Shown here: in pieces, positions 19,188 through 28,959 of the stretch
Layout: each line of letters starts with the position of its first letter
How positions within the stretch are numbered: position 1 is the stretch's first letter
Assembly (NCBI GenBank): GCA_029855935.1
Contig: JAGSHN010000025.1
Location: 147,135-211,134 of the forward strand
DNA: 64,000 bases
Reading direction: 5' to 3'
Origin: Candidatus Thorarchaeota archaeon
GTDB lineage: Archaea; Asgardarchaeota; Thorarchaeia; Thorarchaeales; Thorarchaeaceae
Notes under the pieces: model-generated
Seen by the model: the letters and a program-made list of their open reading frames with translations, nothing else
The model's database searches: none
Told to the model about the DNA's origin: nothing
Position numbers and translations under genes: made by a program

Positions 19188-20915
19188 CTAGAAGACGGCA
19201 CGGACAGTGTTCAGTACAAGACCCACGAGATCCCTTGCCCGAGAGACCCTGATGACCGTCGCGCCCGCCTTGGTCAGAAGGGCCATCGACGGAGGATCAG
19301 AGCCCTCATCAAGCCATATGTGGAACACGAACAGGCTATGGCCGCGCTGTGTCAACCTCCTCACGCAGCGGACCATCTCTCCCCAGTTAGAGACTTCAGC
19401 GTCCGTGACCATCAGCACGACGGTCCTGTGCTCTGAGAGCAGACCCATCGTTTCGATTGCCTCGGCGGGAAGGACAGTGCCCTCCCCTTGGTACCTGAGC
19501 AGCACACGTTCGAGCAGGCTTCGTTCCCTCGTCCATCTCGTCTCAATCCAGTCTGAGGAGAAGTTGATGACAGCAACCCTGGACCCGCGACGCAACACAT
19601 AGTCGATTGCGGCAAAGGCGGATAGGAGAGCAAGATGAAATGCTCCCGAGAGCGAGGAGGTCCTGACATTCCAGGTCATCGAGCCACTGGAGTCAAGCAC
19701 AAGCAGAAGGTCTGGGAGGACCTTGGCCTCCGTGTCGGAATAGGACTCTACCCGGTGCCACCTCCGCGTTGATAGGTTCGGTATGAGGACGGGAAATGCC
19801 TGCAACGACTGGACCACATCAAGCTCCTCAATTGGATCACCAATCCGCCATACAATCGGAGCTAGCGGCAGGGCACCAGTGTGGCTACGCTCTCGTATCT
19901 CAAGCCTGACTAGCTCGCGAGCAAGGGCACGATACCAGAAACGGAGCCAGTCACGGCCTGAACCAGTGACCCCGCGCAGTACCATGGCCGCGCGAAAGTC
20001 CTCAAGATTGCCACCACGTTCTCTGATACTCGCAGCAGTGGCCTCAATCTCGGCCTCACTGGCGCGACGCAACGGGTCTGTGCATTCTCTCACACGCTCG
20101 CCGTTGCGAATCTCGACGGGACTGCCCATCACCCTGTCTACATCTTGTGGGACACGAACAACATCCTCCTTGCCCTCACCACGCCACGGCAGGCGCACCA
20201 TCTTGATGCTCTCGCCCGAGCCGCTGCCCGGCAGGCCCTCTTCCCCTGAAGTCCCCCCGAGTCTGGCAATGATCTGAGCAATCTTTTCGACTGCCAAGGG
20301 CCATCTGCGTTCACGATGACGATACTGGCGGAACACCTCCACAATCTCGGAGGCTGCAGCCAAGATGTCTCTACCGAGCTTCACGGACTCCGGAACGGGG
20401 AGACCCCACTGGACTCGGTAGGTCGCCACGATGAGCGACCAGAGGACTGACCGCTGGGCGCCCTTCATTGCGGAATAGTAGACCGAGTGTACGATCCGAT
20501 TGTGGGTCAGACGAGGATACTGCTCAAGAAGTAGGGAGTCGACGACGAGGTCCGCGAACAGGTTACACGCGAACATAGCGGTCTCGTCATTCAGATGTCG
20601 TCGGGCACGGGAGAACATCATCGCACTGGTCACGTTGTCATAAGGACAGGTCAGGTAGTGCTGCAGCTCATGATGGCACACTGACCTGACAAAGGCGAAG
20701 GTCTCTTCGCTCGTCAGATAGTCGGGGACACTAGCGAGGTTGAGATGGACAGTCCACGTCTCGGTGTCGATGTAAAAGTGGCTGGGACGCTCGTCGTCGA
20801 TGTCTATGACAGGGTCAGGGACAGGCGGCGAGTACAGGTCAGCCAGTGCCCGTGACCACGCACGCTCTGCGACCTCTATGATATGAGGCATGCCAGATCT
20901 GCTGTCGGACACCAT
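19188..20915 (-). CDS. Metallopeptidase-like / von Willebrand factor A protein (DUF2201-type)
   Basis: A 575-aa cytosolic protein. The N-terminal half resembles a zinc peptidase, with HELQH (82-86) preceded by a helix and followed by a possible third-ligand helix (NLFADLVVDSLLLE). The C-terminal part is a VWA domain with an intact MIDAS: DSSGSM (about 407-412) and later VTDAE. This combination is known from DUF2201/VWA-like proteins that pair with MoxR ATPases. Such pairs are thought to remodel or activate partner proteins. ATG 20915 overlaps the moxR stop as TGATG and has gagg 5 nt upstream. The client is unknown. Confidence 0.8.
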   Translation of the reverse strand: MVSDSRSGMPHIIEVAERAWSRALADLYSPPVPDPVIDIDDERPSHFYIDTETWTVHLNLASVPDYLTSEETFAFVRSVCHHELQHYLTCPYDNVTSAMMFSRARRHLNDETAMFACNLFADLVVDSLLLEQYPRLTHNRIVHSVYYSAMKGAQRSVLWSLIVATYRVQWGLPVPESVKLGRDILAAASEIVEVFRQYRHRERRWPLAVEKIAQIIARLGGTSGEEGLPGSGSGESIKMVRLPWRGEGKEDVVRVPQDVDRVMGSPVEIRNGERVRECTDPLRRASEAEIEATAASIRERGGNLEDFRAAMVLRGVTGSGRDWLRFWYRALARELVRLEIRERSHTGALPLAPIVWRIGDPIEELDVVQSLQAFPVLIPNLSTRRWHRVESYSDTEAKVLPDLLLVLDSSGSMTWNVRTSSLSGAFHLALLSAFAAIDYVLRRGSRVAVINFSSDWIETRWTRERSLLERVLLRYQGEGTVLPAEAIETMGLLSEHRTVVLMVTDAEVSNWGEMVRCVRRLTQRGHSLFVFHIWLDEGSDPPSMALLTKAGATVIRVSRARDLVGLVLNTVRAVF

Positions 20916-22669
20916 CAACGCCTCGCTACTTGTCCCAGTCCCTCCTCAATTATCCTCCTCAGTCTGATTGCAGGAGTACCACCCGACACCTCAAGAAACA
21001 CGGATGAGTCCGGTGAATCGCCAGTGACATAGATGACCAGGGTCAGTTGATCCATTCGAATGACACGTCGCTTGGGCGGATGTAGGGTCTCCTTTAGGAA
21101 GGGCGTCATCTCGGGGAATGCCATACTGATGGTCGTCCACAGCTCACTCCAACGACGGAAGTCAAGGGTGTACTGCGACAGCGTAAGCCTGTGAAGGGCA
21201 TCCGAGACCCGGCCAATCAGGGCGGCGCGGTTCGGTATTGTAGATGACCGTACAAGTTCCGCATACACCTTTGAGAGCCTCTTGACATCACCTGCAGCAA
21301 TAGCAGCATCAATACGATGCACCATCTTCTCGTACGAGGCCTGTATCATCTTCTTTGCCACAGGGAGATAGTCGAGTCTGACCAGTAGATCGCTCTTGGC
21401 AATCTCCTGGAGTTTCTGGATGTCATCACGAGACCCATCACCCGTCTGTAGGCGGGCCATTATCTTACGGGCTGGCTCCCGGGCCACGAATCGGGCAGTG
21501 GCCAGCTCCACAAGGTGGCACGTGAACTCGTATCTGTCACCATAGAAGGGCGATGCAGCCAGCCGGTCACGTACAAAGCGGGTGCGATGCCAGAAGACGA
21601 GCGGTGCAATCGACTTGACGATGTCCACACTCACTTCATCCGCACCGACAAGCCACGCTAGCGCCTTGCTGTAACGATTCAGGTCCTTTGCAGCCCTGAC
21701 GCTGAGTGGGATGACCACTTTGTTGCATACCGTCTTGGCGATGTTGTAGTGACATCCATCACAGAGTCCCGAGTCAACTGTCAGCTCTCCAGACTGGCTC
21801 TTGTCGACACGCACACAGGCGTCGAACTCCCTCACCAATGACCGTATGTACTCGGAGGCCCCGTGCGATACCGCCATCTTATCCGCAAGATTCCAGATTG
21901 TGAGGAGGTCCTCCTCTGTCAGGATCCCCGGCACCTGCCAGAGCTCGTCGTAGCCGAAGAGCCTCTCATCACGGGTACCCAGGATGATCTCAAGGTCAGA
22001 GATTCGAGGCATTGTTATTGGTACGGCAAGGCCAAACCTGTCGAGAAAGGGTGGCGCCAGCTCAAAGGTCCCCGAGTCGGTTGGATTCATAGTGGCAAAC
22101 AGGCAGTATTCCTCGCATCGGCGCACCTCATCATAGTACTTGAGTTCGCCCTCCGCAAGCATCGACAGGAGTATGTTCTGTGCATGCGGAGTGAGACGAT
22201 TGACCTCATCGACTATTTTCCAGAAGTCCGTTACAAACCGCCGCCAAACAACAACCTCGCGACCCTCCTTCATCAACGGGCCAGGACGAAGCGTCGCCAC
22301 CATCTTCTCCTCGGTCAGCTGTGGGTGTCCACGGAGAATGGCATCCTCGATCTCGGCTATGCTCCGCCCCGTCATCATCCGGCCAAGGAGTTTCACAAGG
22401 GTGGTCTTGCCGCCGCCGTGGCCTCCAACAAGCAGCATCGCAGAGCGAGGGACCAGGGCATTAAGAACACAGCTACCAGCAATGAGCGGCAGTCGAATCG
22501 ACTTCGCACGACCCGCTCCCGCTGGCTGATACTTCACGGTCAGCTCCCCGGAGTGAACGAACAGGCCGTGGCTCTCGACCGTCGTGATGACCTCCATCAC
22601 CTTGCGCCTCAGCTGTTCGTTCCTGCTGACCATTGCGATCACATCGCGTACTCTTATCGGAGTCTCCAT
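20915..22669 (-). CDS. MoxR-family AAA+ ATPase
   Basis: A 584-aa MoxR-like ATPase. Walker A is GGHGGGKTT (82-90). The Walker B region is WKIVDEVNRL, followed by the MoxR-typical QNILLSMLAEGE. Sensor 1 is ATMNPTDSGTFELAPPFLDRF. It has a C-terminal extension of about 250 residues not recognised as a known domain, longer than in small MoxR proteins. It is translationally coupled to the metallopeptidase-VWA gene downstream, so the two form one module. It is divergent from the SMC operon with 72 nt between starts. A TATA-like stretch at 22720-22731 could serve either strand. Confidence 0.9.
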   Translation of the reverse strand: METPIRVRDVIAMVSRNEQLRRKVMEVITTVESHGLFVHSGELTVKYQPAGAGRAKSIRLPLIAGSCVLNALVPRSAMLLVGGHGGGKTTLVKLLGRMMTGRSIAEIEDAILRGHPQLTEEKMVATLRPGPLMKEGREVVVWRRFVTDFWKIVDEVNRLTPHAQNILLSMLAEGELKYYDEVRRCEEYCLFATMNPTDSGTFELAPPFLDRFGLAVPITMPRISDLEIILGTRDERLFGYDELWQVPGILTEEDLLTIWNLADKMAVSHGASEYIRSLVREFDACVRVDKSQSGELTVDSGLCDGCHYNIAKTVCNKVVIPLSVRAAKDLNRYSKALAWLVGADEVSVDIVKSIAPLVFWHRTRFVRDRLAASPFYGDRYEFTCHLVELATARFVAREPARKIMARLQTGDGSRDDIQKLQEIAKSDLLVRLDYLPVAKKMIQASYEKMVHRIDAAIAAGDVKRLSKVYAELVRSSTIPNRAALIGRVSDALHRLTLSQYTLDFRRWSELWTTISMAFPEMTPFLKETLHPPKRRVIRMDQLTLVIYVTGDSPDSSVFLEVSGGTPAIRLRRIIEEGLGQVARR

Positions 22670-22741: not shown

Positions 22742-23848
22742 ATGCCGGATGAAGGGCAGGTACCTACAGTGGGCGAAGAGACCTCATTTGCTGACGCGAT
22801 AAGGCTGGTGTCGCGGGAGGACATCAGTCCCAGTGGACTAGCACAGCGGTCAGTCGTCGAGATGGCAGAGTCTGTAGCCGAGGTCATTTCTGGCACCCTA
22901 GCCGCACGAGAGCAACTCGAGCAATTGGGCCTCTCCCCATGCACAAGGATACTATTCACGGGCCCCGTAGGAACGGACTTTGAGGACTTTGTCCTCTCTG
23001 TCTGCAGAGAGATGTCGCTGAATCTCGTAAGACTTCGAGTCGAGAGAACATTGCAATACGAGAGAGAGTTTGACACACTTGTTGCAGCAGCACTGGACAC
23101 TGCACGCAGAGAGGCACCAGCCCTCCTGCACATCTCGTCACTGCATCTCTTGAGGGCCGTTGGAGAACGTTCTGAGGTCCTTCTCCGAGAACAGCTGGCA
23201 CAGTCGTCTATGGATAGCCAGTCTCTCGTCGTCATTGTGGGCACCACTCACAGGCCACAGGATCTCGACCCACAGACCCTGCTTGCCTTCGACAGAGTGT
23301 TGTGCGTCGGTCCCCCGGACGGAGAGGACCGGCAGAGTCTGCTCGTCCAGGCCCTTGCGTCACACGAGGACATTGATATTCCTCGTCTCGTAGACCTCAC
23401 CGACGGGTGGTCCTACGCGTCACTCAGACATCTTGTTGCGGCCGTATTGGCAGAGGGCGGAGAGTCGGGCGAGGCGCCATCCATAGACCGCATCGAGAAG
23501 ATGATAGAGGAGGGGCTGTTCGTCCCAGTTCTTGCCACAGGCAGCACAACCGAACTGGAAAAGAGGCTTGTCGGCGGGGGACGGGGGATCACACACGTCA
23601 TTGAGGAGGTGTATCCTGATGACCTCCTCGACCAGCTCTACCTGATGGTCGTTACGGAGGACTATGGGACAGCACAGCAAGTCATCGAGGCCCTAAACGA
23701 GGGACTCCCGCTCTCTGATGAGCAGGTGAGGTTCCTCAACCGTTTTCCGTTTCTCCTCTCAGGAGAGCCCCGTGAGAGGCTCGCCCGTCTGATAAGGGCG
23801 AAGAAGAATAGAGACCGTCTGATGCGCGTGATGGGAAGGGAGGAATGA
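22742..23848 (+). CDS. AAA+-like pseudo-ATPase, first gene of the SMC operon
   Basis: A 368-aa protein that follows the layout of an FtsH/Cdc48-type AAA module but lacks the nucleotide-binding residues. The Walker A site is GPVGTDFED (74-82), with Phe-Glu where Lys-Thr should be. The Walker B strand is LLHISSLHLL (about 127-136), without the acidic pair. Sensor-1-like and following parts are clear: VIVGTTHRPQDLDPQTLLAFDRVLCVGPPDGEDR. About 130 C-terminal residues are helical and unassigned. The stop is 4 nt before the TTG of SMC, so it is co-translated with SMC, ScpA and ScpB. A role as loader or regulator of the condensin complex is inferred from position alone. Confidence 0.7.
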   Translation: MPDEGQVPTVGEETSFADAIRLVSREDISPSGLAQRSVVEMAESVAEVISGTLAAREQLEQLGLSPCTRILFTGPVGTDFEDFVLSVCREMSLNLVRLRVERTLQYEREFDTLVAAALDTARREAPALLHISSLHLLRAVGERSEVLLREQLAQSSMDSQSLVVIVGTTHRPQDLDPQTLLAFDRVLCVGPPDGEDRQSLLVQALASHEDIDIPRLVDLTDGWSYASLRHLVAAVLAEGGESGEAPSIDRIEKMIEEGLFVPVLATGSTTELEKRLVGGGRGITHVIEEVYPDDLLDQLYLMVVTEDYGTAQQVIEALNEGLPLSDEQVRFLNRFPFLLSGEPRERLARLIRAKKNRDRLMRVMGREE

Positions 23849-23852
23849 CTGA

Positions 23853-26800
23853 TTGAGCGTGATCGTGAGGTCAATCAGACTCAGGAACTTCATGCCCTTC
23901 GTGGACGAGACAGTCCCGCTCGACCGCGGACTGACAGTCATTGTGGGGAGGAACGGCGCTGGCAAGAGTGCGATACTGCACGGACTGAAGTTCTGCCTGG
24001 GCTCAAACCAGCGAGAGAAACGATTTGGTAGCTGGGAGGGCTTCATCAGATGGGGCGCGGAAGTTGCAGAAGTTGAAGTGACGGTTGAGCATCAGGGTGA
24101 GACGATCGTCTTCGCGCGCAGGATTGGCAAGAAGGGAGTCCCACTGGCCTACATTAACGGCCGAAGGGTCCGTGCATCGGAGCTGCGGCGCGAGGTCGAG
24201 CGCCTCGGTTTCAAGGTTGACAACCCTCTTGTCTTCCTCCCACAGGAACGTGTCATTCAGCTGAGCAGTGCATCAGCAACCGACATCAGAGAGATGGTCG
24301 AGGATGGTACGGGACTCTACAGACTGAGGGACCGGATCCTCCTTCAGGAGACAGAACTGCGTCACGACAGGATGAGATTGGAGGCCGCGCTTCTGGAGGC
24401 CCGCTCCATTCAGGGAGAATTGAAGCTTCTCGAGGGCGACCTCAAGCGCCTGAAGAAGAAGCAGGATCTGCAGAGGACCAGAGAGAGCCTTGAGATCGAG
24501 TTGAAGTGGGCCGAACTCGAACTTGTGGAGAGGAACATCGAGAGAATCGACCAGGAGATTCAGGAAGAGGAGGTCAGCCTAAGACAGGCCAGTGCAAAAG
24601 TCGAGGAGATTGAGAACAAGATAGAGAGTGAGACCCAGACGGCCAAGGCGATCGAGTCGCAGACGCAGCTAATAAGGACCGAACTCGGCCGACTGAGAGA
24701 GCGGCTGGATTCGGAACGAGACCGGTTGAAAAACCTGAAGGAGAGCAACAAGCAGGCTGTGATAGAGCTCGGGGAGATTGACAAGCGCATCAAGAGAGAC
24801 AGAATGGAGATGATGGCGCTACAGAGTGACATCGAGGCGAAGAAGAAGGAGATATGGAACACCACGGAGGAACTCGAGGAACTCAGGGAGAAGGAACAGG
24901 CGGCGAGAGAGGAACAGGAGAGACTTGAGGAGGCGCTAACACGCTACGTCGAGTGGAACACGCGTAGGATGGACATTCGGAGTAGACTGACAGCCGCACG
25001 AGGTCGGCTGAAGGACAGAGAGATAGATCTGAGAGCCTATCGCCAGAGGCTTCAGACAGACAGAGCCGATCTTGAGGAGATTGAGAGACAGTGGAGTGAT
25101 CTGTGGGAGACGCTCGAGACCACAAGCGAAGAGGAACTACTATCTCAAAGGACCGAGACCAACAATAGGATTGAAGAGCTGGCACAGAGGAGGGTGGCAC
25201 ATCTCAGCCGTATCGCTGAGCTGAAGAGGGAACTCGCGTTCACTGAAGAGTTGATAGCAGAGAGGTCAAAACGGATACCGAAGACTGTTCGTGCCCTCAG
25301 GTCTGAGGTAGAGAAGCACGGACTAGAGGCCATCGGTCCTCTCGTAGAGGTCGTGGGCGAGAACGAGGAGATGGCGGGCGCACTGGAGGCTGTACTGCGT
25401 GACCAGCTGGCCTTCGCATTCATAACGACAGACGCTGCGGACTTCCAGCTACTCTGTAGAATACGGGACGAACTTGAGGCGCCTGCACCAGTATTCCTAG
25501 TCGAAGATTCAACAGACGAGCGTGCCAAGGGGGCCCCCGAGATAGGAGGGAGGGAGGGGGTCCTTGGTGATCTGTGGCGGATGGCCGGGGTGACAGAGGA
25601 GCTTGCCCGCCTGCTGCGCAGGAGCATCGGATCGTTCTTGGTAGTCTCTGACGCAGGAGATGCAATGCGCATCGCCCGCACAGCAAGGGTAGCCACCGTC
25701 ACACCTCAAGGCCACGTCTTCATCGTTGGGAATGGTTTCGTCTTGAGCAGGCCCCAGAGTGGGCAGGCTGGACTCCTCTCGACAGCGCCTCTTCGAGCCA
25801 AGAGAGAGGTGCTGAGAAAGCAACTCATCGAAAGCGAACAACAGCTCGCGGAAACAGTCAGAGAGATTGCGAATCTGGAGCGACTGCGCGACGAGCTGAC
25901 CCAGCTTCTCGAGCGCTACGCGGAAAAGGACAGGATATGGGCCAGACGGAGCGAACTCGCAGAGGATATCGAGCGGACCGAGGAGGCCATCCGCAAGATC
26001 GAGGAGGAGATTCTCCCTCTGAGGGAGGAGATTGAAGAACTCGTGTCCGAGCTGAGGAAGATGGATAGCAAGCAGCCTCCTGAGAGGAGCCGGATTCAGG
26101 GCCAGCTCGTTGCCGTGCGTCAGCAGATCGCCAAGCTCGCCTCCGACATCTCCGCACGCAGGGGCCAGGTGGAGCGTGCAAGAGCTATCTTGAGGGCAGA
26201 TCAGGACAAGGTCGGTACACTGGAAGAGAGCATTGCTGCACTGCAGCAGCATCGTGATGAGCTGAAGGAGATTCTCAGGCTGGCTGCCGAACAGTCCGAC
26301 GAGATACTTGAGAACATAGAGGGCCTTGAGAGACGTATAGAGGAACTCTCTTCGAAGGAGGAGTCCCTGTCGCAGGAGCTGAGCGAACACCAGACAAAGC
26401 TGTACGCTCTGAACAGGGAGCTCGCGGAACACAACGTCCGTAGTCAGGACCTCATCAGAGAGGTGCGGCGCAAACGGCTACAACTGGGAAATCTTGAGAC
26501 TCGCAGGAAGGAGATACAGAGTCAGGTCGCCTCAATCGCACGACCAGCCCGGGTGAGACCCCTTGCAGATGTCACCCGCGAGCTGGAGAGCGTGACCTCG
26601 CGGTTGGACGAGTACAGGGATGTGGATGATGACCTTCTTCGCGTCAGGTCCGAGCTTGCCCAGCGACTGGCGGAGGTCGAGGCCAAGGCCGACCAGATAC
26701 GTGACGAGATGTCAGAGGCTGAGAGCACGCTGGAGGACATCAAGGCGCAGTACTACAGTGAGATGGCAAAGGTGCTGGAGCGTCTCGGCAGAGACATCAA

Positions 26801-27290
26801 CACTATTCTGAGGACTGTCGAGCTGGAAGGGGAGGTACGTCTGGAGATGGTCAAACAGGACGAGGAGTACGGGGTCGAGTTCCTGACGAGAATCAAGGAT
26901 GGTACGTTCAAGGGCGTGAGACCGGGATCCGGCGGAGAGCGCACCCTGATAACAATTGCACTGATCATCGCGCTACAGCAGCTGAATCCAGCCCCGATAT
27001 ACTTCCTCGATGAGGCGGACATGGCATTGGATGCTGTCTATGCGGACCGCGTCGGCCGACTGTTCAAGGCGGCTGCGGCCGACAAGCAGATTGTCATTCT
27101 GACACCGCTCCGGAGCGTCAAACTTCTCAAGCACGCAGACACTCTTCTGGGAGTTGCAACACCTGACGGTCGCACCCCAGTCATCATAGAGGCCCCAGAG
27201 GAGGACAAGAACGAAGAACAGAACGAGAGGAAAGAGGGAGATGCCAAGAGGGAGGGAGGCGACGATGACGATGGGAGGCAAGAGGAATGA
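23853..27290 (+). CDS. smc: Chromosome condensation/segregation SMC ATPase
   Basis: A 1145-aa SMC protein. Walker A is GRNGAGKS (32-39), followed by a Q-loop region, long coiled coils (about 165-480 and 640-1000), and a hinge around 480-630. The C-terminal head has the signature GSGGERT (about 1027-1033) and Walker B IYFLDEADMALD (about 1049-1060). A very acidic and basic tail (EEDKNEEQNE...) closes the protein. It forms a dimer that extrudes or holds DNA loops with a kleisin and KITE protein, both encoded directly downstream. The signature and Walker B differ from the common archaeal LSGGEK / DEVDAALD forms. TTG 23853 or GTG 23859 may be the start; ggagg is near 23839. Confidence 0.95.
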   Translation: MSVIVRSIRLRNFMPFVDETVPLDRGLTVIVGRNGAGKSAILHGLKFCLGSNQREKRFGSWEGFIRWGAEVAEVEVTVEHQGETIVFARRIGKKGVPLAYINGRRVRASELRREVERLGFKVDNPLVFLPQERVIQLSSASATDIREMVEDGTGLYRLRDRILLQETELRHDRMRLEAALLEARSIQGELKLLEGDLKRLKKKQDLQRTRESLEIELKWAELELVERNIERIDQEIQEEEVSLRQASAKVEEIENKIESETQTAKAIESQTQLIRTELGRLRERLDSERDRLKNLKESNKQAVIELGEIDKRIKRDRMEMMALQSDIEAKKKEIWNTTEELEELREKEQAAREEQERLEEALTRYVEWNTRRMDIRSRLTAARGRLKDREIDLRAYRQRLQTDRADLEEIERQWSDLWETLETTSEEELLSQRTETNNRIEELAQRRVAHLSRIAELKRELAFTEELIAERSKRIPKTVRALRSEVEKHGLEAIGPLVEVVGENEEMAGALEAVLRDQLAFAFITTDAADFQLLCRIRDELEAPAPVFLVEDSTDERAKGAPEIGGREGVLGDLWRMAGVTEELARLLRRSIGSFLVVSDAGDAMRIARTARVATVTPQGHVFIVGNGFVLSRPQSGQAGLLSTAPLRAKREVLRKQLIESEQQLAETVREIANLERLRDELTQLLERYAEKDRIWARRSELAEDIERTEEAIRKIEEEILPLREEIEELVSELRKMDSKQPPERSRIQGQLVAVRQQIAKLASDISARRGQVERARAILRADQDKVGTLEESIAALQQHRDELKEILRLAAEQSDEILENIEGLERRIEELSSKEESLSQELSEHQTKLYALNRELAEHNVRSQDLIREVRRKRLQLGNLETRRKEIQSQVASIARPARVRPLADVTRELESVTSRLDEYRDVDDDLLRVRSELAQRLAEVEAKADQIRDEMSEAESTLEDIKAQYYSEMAKVLERLGRDINTILRTVELEGEVRLEMVKQDEEYGVEFLTRIKDGTFKGVRPGSGGERTLITIALIIALQQLNPAPIYFLDEADMALDAVYADRVGRLFKAAAADKQIVILTPLRSVKLLKHADTLLGVATPDGRTPVIIEAPEEDKNEEQNERKEGDAKREGGDDDDGRQEE

Positions 27291-28003
27291 TCAGGGACGC
27301 ACTCAGGAGTAGGGTGAGACGCCTTGCCCGGAGTGTCGAGTCCGGAGAGGTCGACCCCCTCGAAGTTGAACTCGCGAGATTGTACAGAGAGCTGCAGGAA
27401 CTCTCGCAACAACTCCCAGTGAAGATGGAGATCGATGAGGCACTGAACGAACTCCTCAGTGCAAAGGTGGGTCGGGTGCAGGAACTGGCACGCGCCGTGG
27501 TGGACCCAGAACTGCTGGTAGACCGTGTGGCACACATGTCAGCCAGAGAGCTTGCCCGCCTCTTGAGGCTGAAGCGACCTCTGTTGGTCCCGGGGCTGTC
27601 GCATCAGCATATGCATCAGGCAGCGGAACGACTCAGACTTAGAGAACCGAGGAGGCAGTGGGACTTTGGGCGGGTCGAGCCAGTCGAACGGCCGACAAGG
27701 ATGGACCTGAGGCTTGAGCCGGAGATCACGGAGGAGGAGGTTGAAGAGTTCCTCACCTCAGTCCCAGTGGGAGAGCCACTACGACTGAGTGACCTCCTGC
27801 GGAGCGAGGACGTGGAGGAGTTCCTGCGTAGGTTCCTGATGGTGGTTCTTCTTGTGGCCAGCGGCGACCTTCAGTACGACGCGACCGCCAGAACCCTGAC
27901 CCGAGTAGAGAGGAGTCCGGACAGTACTTCTTCGCGTGAGCAACAACAGGTCGCTGGCCAGCCAGCGGACCGAGGGAGGAGATGGAGGAGGCGGTCCCGA
28001 TGA
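27287..28003 (+). CDS. ScpA-like kleisin
   Basis: A 238-aa protein overlapping the smc stop as ATGA. The N-terminal part contains VDPLEVELARLYRELQELS (about 23-41), matching the SMC-neck-binding helix region of ScpA. The C-terminal part (VEEFLRRFLMVVLLVASGDLQYDA, about 177-200) looks like the winged-helix that caps the second SMC head. The linker is variable and the tail is Arg/Gln-rich. Similarity is weak but the position between smc and a ScpB-like gene, the length, and the domain ends all fit a kleisin. It should bridge the two SMC heads. Confidence 0.75.
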   Translation: MIRDALRSRVRRLARSVESGEVDPLEVELARLYRELQELSQQLPVKMEIDEALNELLSAKVGRVQELARAVVDPELLVDRVAHMSARELARLLRLKRPLLVPGLSHQHMHQAAERLRLREPRRQWDFGRVEPVERPTRMDLRLEPEITEEEVEEFLTSVPVGEPLRLSDLLRSEDVEEFLRRFLMVVLLVASGDLQYDATARTLTRVERSPDSTSSREQQQVAGQPADRGRRWRRRSR

Positions 28004-28521
28004 ACAACGAGTTCTCTGTCTTGATGAGCGCACTGACGAGGCCCGGAAACCCCCCGGGGGCAAATATCTCAGACCTGATCGAGGTGCTTGGCTATCCAGT
28101 CGACCCGGGACGGACAATCGTATTCAGGCTGCTCGCCGGGCTGGATCGCATCCTGCATCAGGTGGGCCTGAGGATAGCGTTCAATCCGGTCGAAGATGTC
28201 TTCTTCATCGATGTCACTGCAAGGGGCAAGGAGGACAGGACAAGACTCCCCGACCGCCTTGCGGCTACACTGCTTGCCGTGATAGCACTGTCCTATCGGG
28301 AGCGCGACTGGGTCCAGGTGAGCCAAGTCAGACGCGTCCGCAGAAAGACGATGAGATCGGTCCGTGCGGACCTCCGTGAACTCCAGGTCCTCGGGTACGT
28401 AGAGTTCAGTGACGACGGGACCCGCGTCAGACCGGGTATTCGTGTGTCCTTCGAGGTCGACCACGATGAGTTCTTCCGTGCGCTGAGCAAGGGAAAGTAC
28501 GGCGCGAGCAGTGACGAATAG
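27982..28521 (+). CDS. ScpB-like winged-helix (KITE) protein
   Basis: A 179-aa protein overlapping the kleisin gene by 22 nt. Two wHTH-like parts can be seen: about 25-80 (NISDLIEVLGYP... LHQVGLRIAFNPVEDVFFID) and about 90-165 (RLAATLLAVIALSYRERDWVQVSQVRRV ... LRELQVLGYVEFSDDGTRVRPG). In bacteria and many archaea ScpB dimers bind the kleisin linker. The assignment rests mainly on gene order and wHTH layout. ATG 27982 has gggagg directly upstream; ATG 28000 with ggagg at about 10 nt is also possible. Confidence 0.65.
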   Translation: MEEAVPMNNEFSVLMSALTRPGNPPGANISDLIEVLGYPVDPGRTIVFRLLAGLDRILHQVGLRIAFNPVEDVFFIDVTARGKEDRTRLPDRLAATLLAVIALSYRERDWVQVSQVRRVRRKTMRSVRADLRELQVLGYVEFSDDGTRVRPGIRVSFEVDHDEFFRALSKGKYGASSDE

Positions 28522-28599: not shown

Positions 28600-28959
28600 A
28601 TGTCGCACAGGAAAGCATTGAGATTCGCAAAGACTGTCTGTCCCATCTGCGGTAGCAAAGAGGTTGCCCGTGATGACCTGAAGGGCGACCTTCTGTGCAC
28701 GAACTGTGGCCACATAATCACAAGACATGAGACCCGGGCCGTTGGAAAGTTCGAGATCGCGCAGCATCTGAAACGCGAGGGCAAGCTCACGTTCGAGCAG
28801 CTCAAAGAGATCACAAAGTCATCGGACGACCGACTGTTTGGCGTGCTGCAGAGCATGCTCAGCATGGGGCTCATTGACGAACTGGGTGGCAAGTATCACC
28901 TGACCAAGCGTGGTCAGCGCTGGTACCGCCAGAGACTGGGACAAGAATGGGGATATTGA
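28600..28959 (+). CDS. Zinc-ribbon / winged-helix protein
   Basis: A 119-aa protein. Residues 14-36 form a TFIIB-like zinc ribbon (CPICGS ... CTNCGH). Residues about 50-115 form a winged helix (FEIAQHLKREGKLTFEQLKE ... LFGVLQSMLSMGLIDELGGKYHLTKRG). The pair suggests a small transcription factor or a nucleic-acid-binding protein. It lacks the cyclin repeats of TFB, so it is not a general initiation factor. It has its own promoter and stands between the SMC operon and the YgbA-family gene. Confidence 0.75.
   Translation: MSHRKALRFAKTVCPICGSKEVARDDLKGDLLCTNCGHIITRHETRAVGKFEIAQHLKREGKLTFEQLKEITKSSDDRLFGVLQSMLSMGLIDELGGKYHLTKRGQRWYRQRLGQEWGY

Follow-up and report, generated by a model that had tools for sequence, protein, structure and literature searches.

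In a 64,000-nucleotide stretch of DNA from a Candidatus Thorarchaeota archaeon (that is, the window), an operon begins with a gene for a 368-amino-acid AAA-like protein (22742..23848, + strand, ATG start; supported by Pfam, PDB profile, AlphaFold2 model and alignment), which we refer to as the pseudo-AAA protein (pAAA). As initially annotated, it is separated by only 4 nt (23848 to 23853) from an smc gene that starts at a TTG codon (23853..27290, +; 1,145 amino acids); its product, SMC-2, is a second, divergent SMC whose ATPase head has kept its motifs intact. Downstream follow two overlapping genes, the first for a ScpA-like kleisin (27287..28003, +; 238 amino acids; hhalign and PDB profile) and the second for a winged-helix, ScpB-like (KITE) subunit (27982..28521, +; 179 amino acids; profile comparison). 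In the opposite direction, across a short divergent promoter region, the window encodes a MoxR-type AAA ATPase (20915..22669, −; 584 amino acids) with an intact Walker A motif (GGHGGGKT) and a metallopeptidase-like VWA protein (19188..20918, −; 576 amino acids) that combines a MIDAS motif (DSSGS) with HExxH. Beyond the winged-helix gene lies a gene for a TFIIB-type zinc-ribbon/winged-helix protein (28600..28959, +; 119 amino acids; Pfam and locus comparison); of those loci of the window's family (placed by genome titles among Candidatus Thorarchaeota, within the Asgard archaea) that reach that far, most have such a protein close to the SMC-2 scpB, and its membership of the SMC-2 module is uncertain. 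One genome labelled Lokiarchaeota RBin_111 (L067) groups with the Thorarchaeota of this family, and its label is therefore probably wrong.

The AAA layout claimed in the initial annotation is well supported. Pfam matches AAA to residues 71–189 (1.2e-7), the NCBIfam CDC48 model matches at 2.3e-12 and Cdc48 is the PDB match (6.2e-21), and the AlphaFold2 model (pLDDT 82.6) comprises an AAA-derived part (alpha/beta core and lid, roughly residues 29–262), a disordered linker (about residues 265–288) and a C-terminal helical domain (residues 287–366; 23600..23839, +; also supported by HMM and identity). Both Pfam and the models indicate the alpha/beta core and helical lid that mark the classic-clade AAA fold, Vps4 and p97 being the top structural matches of the model (Z about 21, rmsd 3.0, 245 residues, ~20% identity); the fold was predicted for two pAAA proteins, one from the window's family and one from family f2. 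The C-terminal domain matched no known fold, in structure match lists that were dominated by the AAA part.

Within this fold the catalytic motifs have degenerated. The Walker A motif reads GPVGTDFE (residues 74–81; 22961..22984, +; alignment) instead of GPPGTGKT, with Phe in place of Lys; relatives keep its G-x-x-G-T-D, and the Lys is present in none of the 53 aligned SMC-2-linked pAAA sequences, in agreement with the loss of Walker A first noted for the window alone. For Walker B, the annotated absence of any Asp or Glu is true of the window (LLHISSL, that is, SS without D or E) but not of its family, in which an acid (D or E) still occupies the first position in 26 of 32 relatives and it is the catalytic Glu that is missing (30/32). 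The sensor-1 described as clear is likewise present as a strand, but the window has His in place of its Asn, which a single one of the 32 relatives retains. The FDR-x-L-x-V-x-PPD motif was correctly recognized (FDRVLCVGPPD), and the arginine-finger RPGR loop is deleted, which makes an Arg-finger activation by pAAA unlikely. Judged by these motifs, pAAA has lost the ability to hydrolyse ATP and, probably, to bind it. Comparison of close pairs gives dN/dS values of 0.08–0.14 (that is, purifying selection), and a ratio of about 0.1 in a protein from which the Walker-A Lys is uniformly absent points to a maintained pseudoenzyme rather than a decaying gene.

The partner of pAAA was initially taken to be an archaeal condensin, an assignment that we revise. 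The window genome encodes two full-length SMCs (found in a phylum-wide search and in an SMC_N search of its own genome), and the canonical one lies on contig 14 (G000:C14), where it is followed by Pfam-recognized ScpA and ScpB. The contig-14 protein matches a solved archaeal SMC at 4e-134, as against a PDB match of about 1e-20 at best for SMC-2; SMC-2 scores 226.9 and 224.3 bits with the SMC_prok equivalog models, for which the cut-offs are 567 and 729, respectively; and head trees set the canonical SMCs apart from SMC-2. The window SMC is a divergent second paralogue and not the ordinary condensin SMC of this genome. SMC evolution is the subject of a 2024 preprint by van Hooff et al. (cited in PMC12188315 and PMC11627563), which may already describe the second Asgard SMC. 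The designation SMC–ScpA–ScpB operon stands in part: a Pfam search recognized neither the kleisin nor the winged-helix protein, and the suspicion that 'ScpA' and 'ScpB' are misnomers is countered for the former by profile comparison, which ties the kleisin to canonical Asgard ScpA (hhalign 94.5%) despite the absent Pfam match, its best PDB match being the ScpA C-terminal domain (4i99_C, E 0.0014). The winged-helix partner is weakly ScpB-like by profile comparison. With an SMC, a kleisin and a winged-helix partner in one operon, the locus has the general composition of an SMC–kleisin system.

The position of pAAA next to smc-2 is conserved in related genomes, where the gene is found directly upstream and co-oriented in all 47 SMC-2 loci examined across seven Asgard families (the window, 23 further loci of its family, 12 of f2, 5 of f27, 3 of f28 and one each of f26, f4 and f6), and an AAA gene precedes canonical smc in none of the 10 canonical loci examined. 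In some relatives scpA and scpB lie about 2 kb apart; this gap, examined in L031, and the one downstream of scpB in L045 were considered as sites of an extra module gene and rejected, as both contain an inserted MFS transporter. Operon linkage can arise from co-regulation without contact. As the first gene of the window operon, beside the short divergent promoter region towards MoxR, pAAA might be thought a structural relic whose role is to control operon transcription from outside the complex. We regard this as very improbable, given that pAAA is not the first gene of the cluster in f4 and f6, is never separated from smc-2 and has no DNA-binding domain recognized in our searches (Pfam among them).

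The C-terminal 80 residues of pAAA share 67% identity within families f1 and f2, compared with 41–44% for the AAA part, and 25–38% compared with 13–17% between families; across Asgard families, conservation is highest in the C-terminal helical domain and lowest on the AAA surface. An HMM of this domain built from the window's family, searched against 2,393 ORFs, detects it in all other SMC-2 families (E 7e-18 to 1e-4), and these matches are well separated from the noise, which begins at 0.6. Families f4 and f6 have lost most of the AAA part and kept the C-terminal domain, the f4 protein (276 amino acids) consisting of an eroded AAA part and a retained C-terminal domain. We suggest, with a probability of roughly two in three, that pAAA, AAA-derived and non-catalytic, serves the SMC–kleisin–KITE complex SMC-2 as a dedicated subunit or regulator. 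On the basis of linkage, conservation pattern and fold, its role would most likely be that of a scaffold or of a loader/unloader, and we infer a physical binding in which the C-terminal helical domain would dock on the SMC-2 complex (at the head/neck or the kleisin) while the AAA-shaped domain would hold a conformation or recruit a genuine ATPase. The candidate for such an ATPase is the linked MoxR ring in the window's family, f4 and f6, where together with its VWA/HExxH partner it could form a loading/unloading machine; for the other families, Cdc48 is a possible candidate.

In a different arrangement, pAAA would take up a regulatory position in a mixed ring with an active AAA (Cdc48-like or MoxR) and SMC-2 would be the client, pAAA being a ring adaptor rather than a stable SMC subunit. 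The nearest folds and sequences of pAAA are indeed those of ring-forming proteins (Cdc48/p97 D2, PAN and Vps4), and three families show genetic linkage to an active MoxR. However, the deletion of the arginine-finger loop, the poor conservation of an AAA surface that is largely gone in f4 and f6 where the C-terminal domain stays, and the membership of MoxR in another AAA class than the parent of pAAA make such a ring unlikely.

The genomes of the window's family gain and lose pAAA, SMC-2, MoxR and the VWA/HExxH protein as a set. SMC-2 is present in 33 of 47 genomes; MoxR and VWA accompany it in all 33 and pAAA in 32, the one exception being a contig break. Among the 14 genomes lacking SMC-2, pAAA is found in none, MoxR in two and VWA in four, in each case at a contig end or next to a gap that contains N. 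Neither these counts nor Fisher's test of co-occurrence in the family (p = 4e-11) take shared ancestry into account. The apparent exceptions (G003, G015, G021, G220 and G024) are explained by genes that end at contig ends or, in G024, lie next to a stretch with 300 N. In this family the pAAA gene lies back to back with the divergent MoxR–VWA pair, and the six genes, MoxR–VWA among them, run in one direction in f4 and f6, where they overlap or come close to it. The MoxR Walker A (GGHGGGKT) is kept in 25 of 25 sequences, and the MIDAS motif and HExxH of the VWA protein in 21 of 21 relatives; the latter corresponds to H83, E84 and H87, all invariant, as is D123. Outside the window's family, f4 and f6, MoxR–VWA is absent from the SMC-2 locus, so that the recruitment idea is not general.

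The patchy loss of SMC-2 within the family, and the combination of an SMC with accessory proteins, one of them possibly an HExxH protease, would also suit a Wadjet- or Lamassu-like system directed at defence or against plasmids, with pAAA as its sensor or regulator. We consider this improbable, as the distribution of the module is wide and syntenic and PADLOC reports no convincing system: it yields generic SMC/coiled-coil matches for the SMC and a weak AAA match (IetA) for pAAA, has no match for the kleisin, KITE, MoxR or VWA proteins, and recognizes no JetABCD (Wadjet) or LmuABC (Lamassu) partner genes at the locus.

AAA proteins also adjoin other Asgard SMCs. In f11 and one f28 genome, a third, short SMC (about 835 amino acids; AAA–SMC pairs at L110:5096-8964, L111:5062-8990, L112:7418-11289 and L113:4739-8628) is preceded by a 460-amino-acid AAA protein in which Walker A and the sensor-1 Asn are intact, FIDNFD replaces FIDEFD (that is, catalytic Glu to Asn; L110–L114) and the C-terminal domain bears a weak likeness to that of pAAA. 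A ScpB-like gene, and usually a ScpA-like one too, lies downstream of the short SMC, and the Glu-to-Asn protein resembles a natural ATP-trap mutant. In one f20 genome (the pair at L115:2933-7041), a divergent 1,067-amino-acid SMC is preceded and overlapped by a fully intact 301-amino-acid AAA ATPase. These partners indicate that AAA–SMC pairing is wider than the dead form, and it is plausible that dead pAAA descends from an active SMC-linked AAA. The expectation that no orthologue has intact Walker motifs thus holds within the SMC-2-linked set but not for relatives at other SMC types (L110–L114 for Walker A; L115 fully). As the L110–L115 SMCs sat in the query alignment of the phylum-wide search, their E-values are inflated and, following the head tree, they were set apart as SMC types of their own. 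An AAA protein of G085 (L109) was rejected as an intact-Walker orthologue, the next genes being unrelated and no smc lying near.

The head of SMC-2 (23853-25112, +) is closer to eukaryotic SMC5/6 than that of the canonical SMC is. The best PDB match of its N-terminal 420 residues is yeast SMC6 (5e-14), and the SMC-2 N-head profile ranks SMC5 first in the PDB (96.8 bits) with archaeal SMC near (91.8), whereas the canonical Asgard N-head profile gives archaeal SMC 275 bits, SMC2 150, SMC6 52 and SMC5 37.6. In unrooted head trees (N-heads, four reference sequences, long branches), canonical SMCs and SMC3 split from SMC-2 and SMC5/6 with support of 100/99 when the short and odd SMCs are left out; when these are included, SMC5/6 does not join SMC-2. 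The unusual similarity of the SMC-2 head to SMC5/6 is suggestive and, with tree support that is not decisive, is best taken as a lead. A more ambitious scenario, which we put forward as doubtful, would make Asgard SMC-2 a prokaryotic relative of Smc5/6 with an ancestral AAA-derived loader that turned from an active ATPase (partly intact beside the short SMC) into a pseudoenzyme, working in the window's family with MoxR and the metallopeptidase-like VWA protein.

No known prokaryotes are closer relatives of eukaryotes than the Asgard archaea, whose handling of chromosomes is, to our knowledge, almost entirely uncharted. If correct, a second SMC complex with a constant AAA partner and an SMC5/6-like head would bear on the origin of eukaryotic SMC complexes, and pAAA itself on the conversion of ATPases into SMC regulators; the AAA partners beside different SMCs, which range from intact through Glu-to-Asn and fully dead to nearly erased, form a series that is testable in vitro. 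The open literature that we searched contained no description of an SMC-linked pseudo-AAA or of an SMC-linked MoxR–VWA pair.

The SMC-2 module shares the gene order smc–kleisin–winged helix and a ScpA-related kleisin with canonical Smc–ScpAB, with which it coexists in the same genome, but has an additional pAAA, a divergent SMC far below the equivalog cut-offs and kleisin and KITE subunits without a Pfam match. Eukaryotic Smc5/6 has the kleisin Nse4, the KITE proteins Nse1/3 and the loader Nse5/6; a kleisin and winged-helix architecture is common to both, and we know of no pAAA counterpart in Smc5/6. MoxR–VWA pairs are known from RavA–ViaA and CbbQO, in which, as in the window, an active MoxR AAA adjoins a VWA protein with a MIDAS motif; the window protein differs in its additional invariant HExxH and in the linkage to an SMC module. 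With the classic AAA ATPases (Cdc48/p97 D2, PAN and Vps4), pAAA has the fold and the FDR..V..PPD motif in common, yet it lacks their Walker-A Lys, catalytic Glu, sensor-1 Asn and RPGR Arg-finger loop and adds the C-terminal helical domain. Inactive AAA subunits occur elsewhere, as in the clamp-loader delta subunit and the Torsin cofactors LAP1 and LULL1; these are ATPase-less, AAA-shaped partners that open, cap or regulate another machine, and pAAA would be analogous to them, with an SMC complex as its partner.
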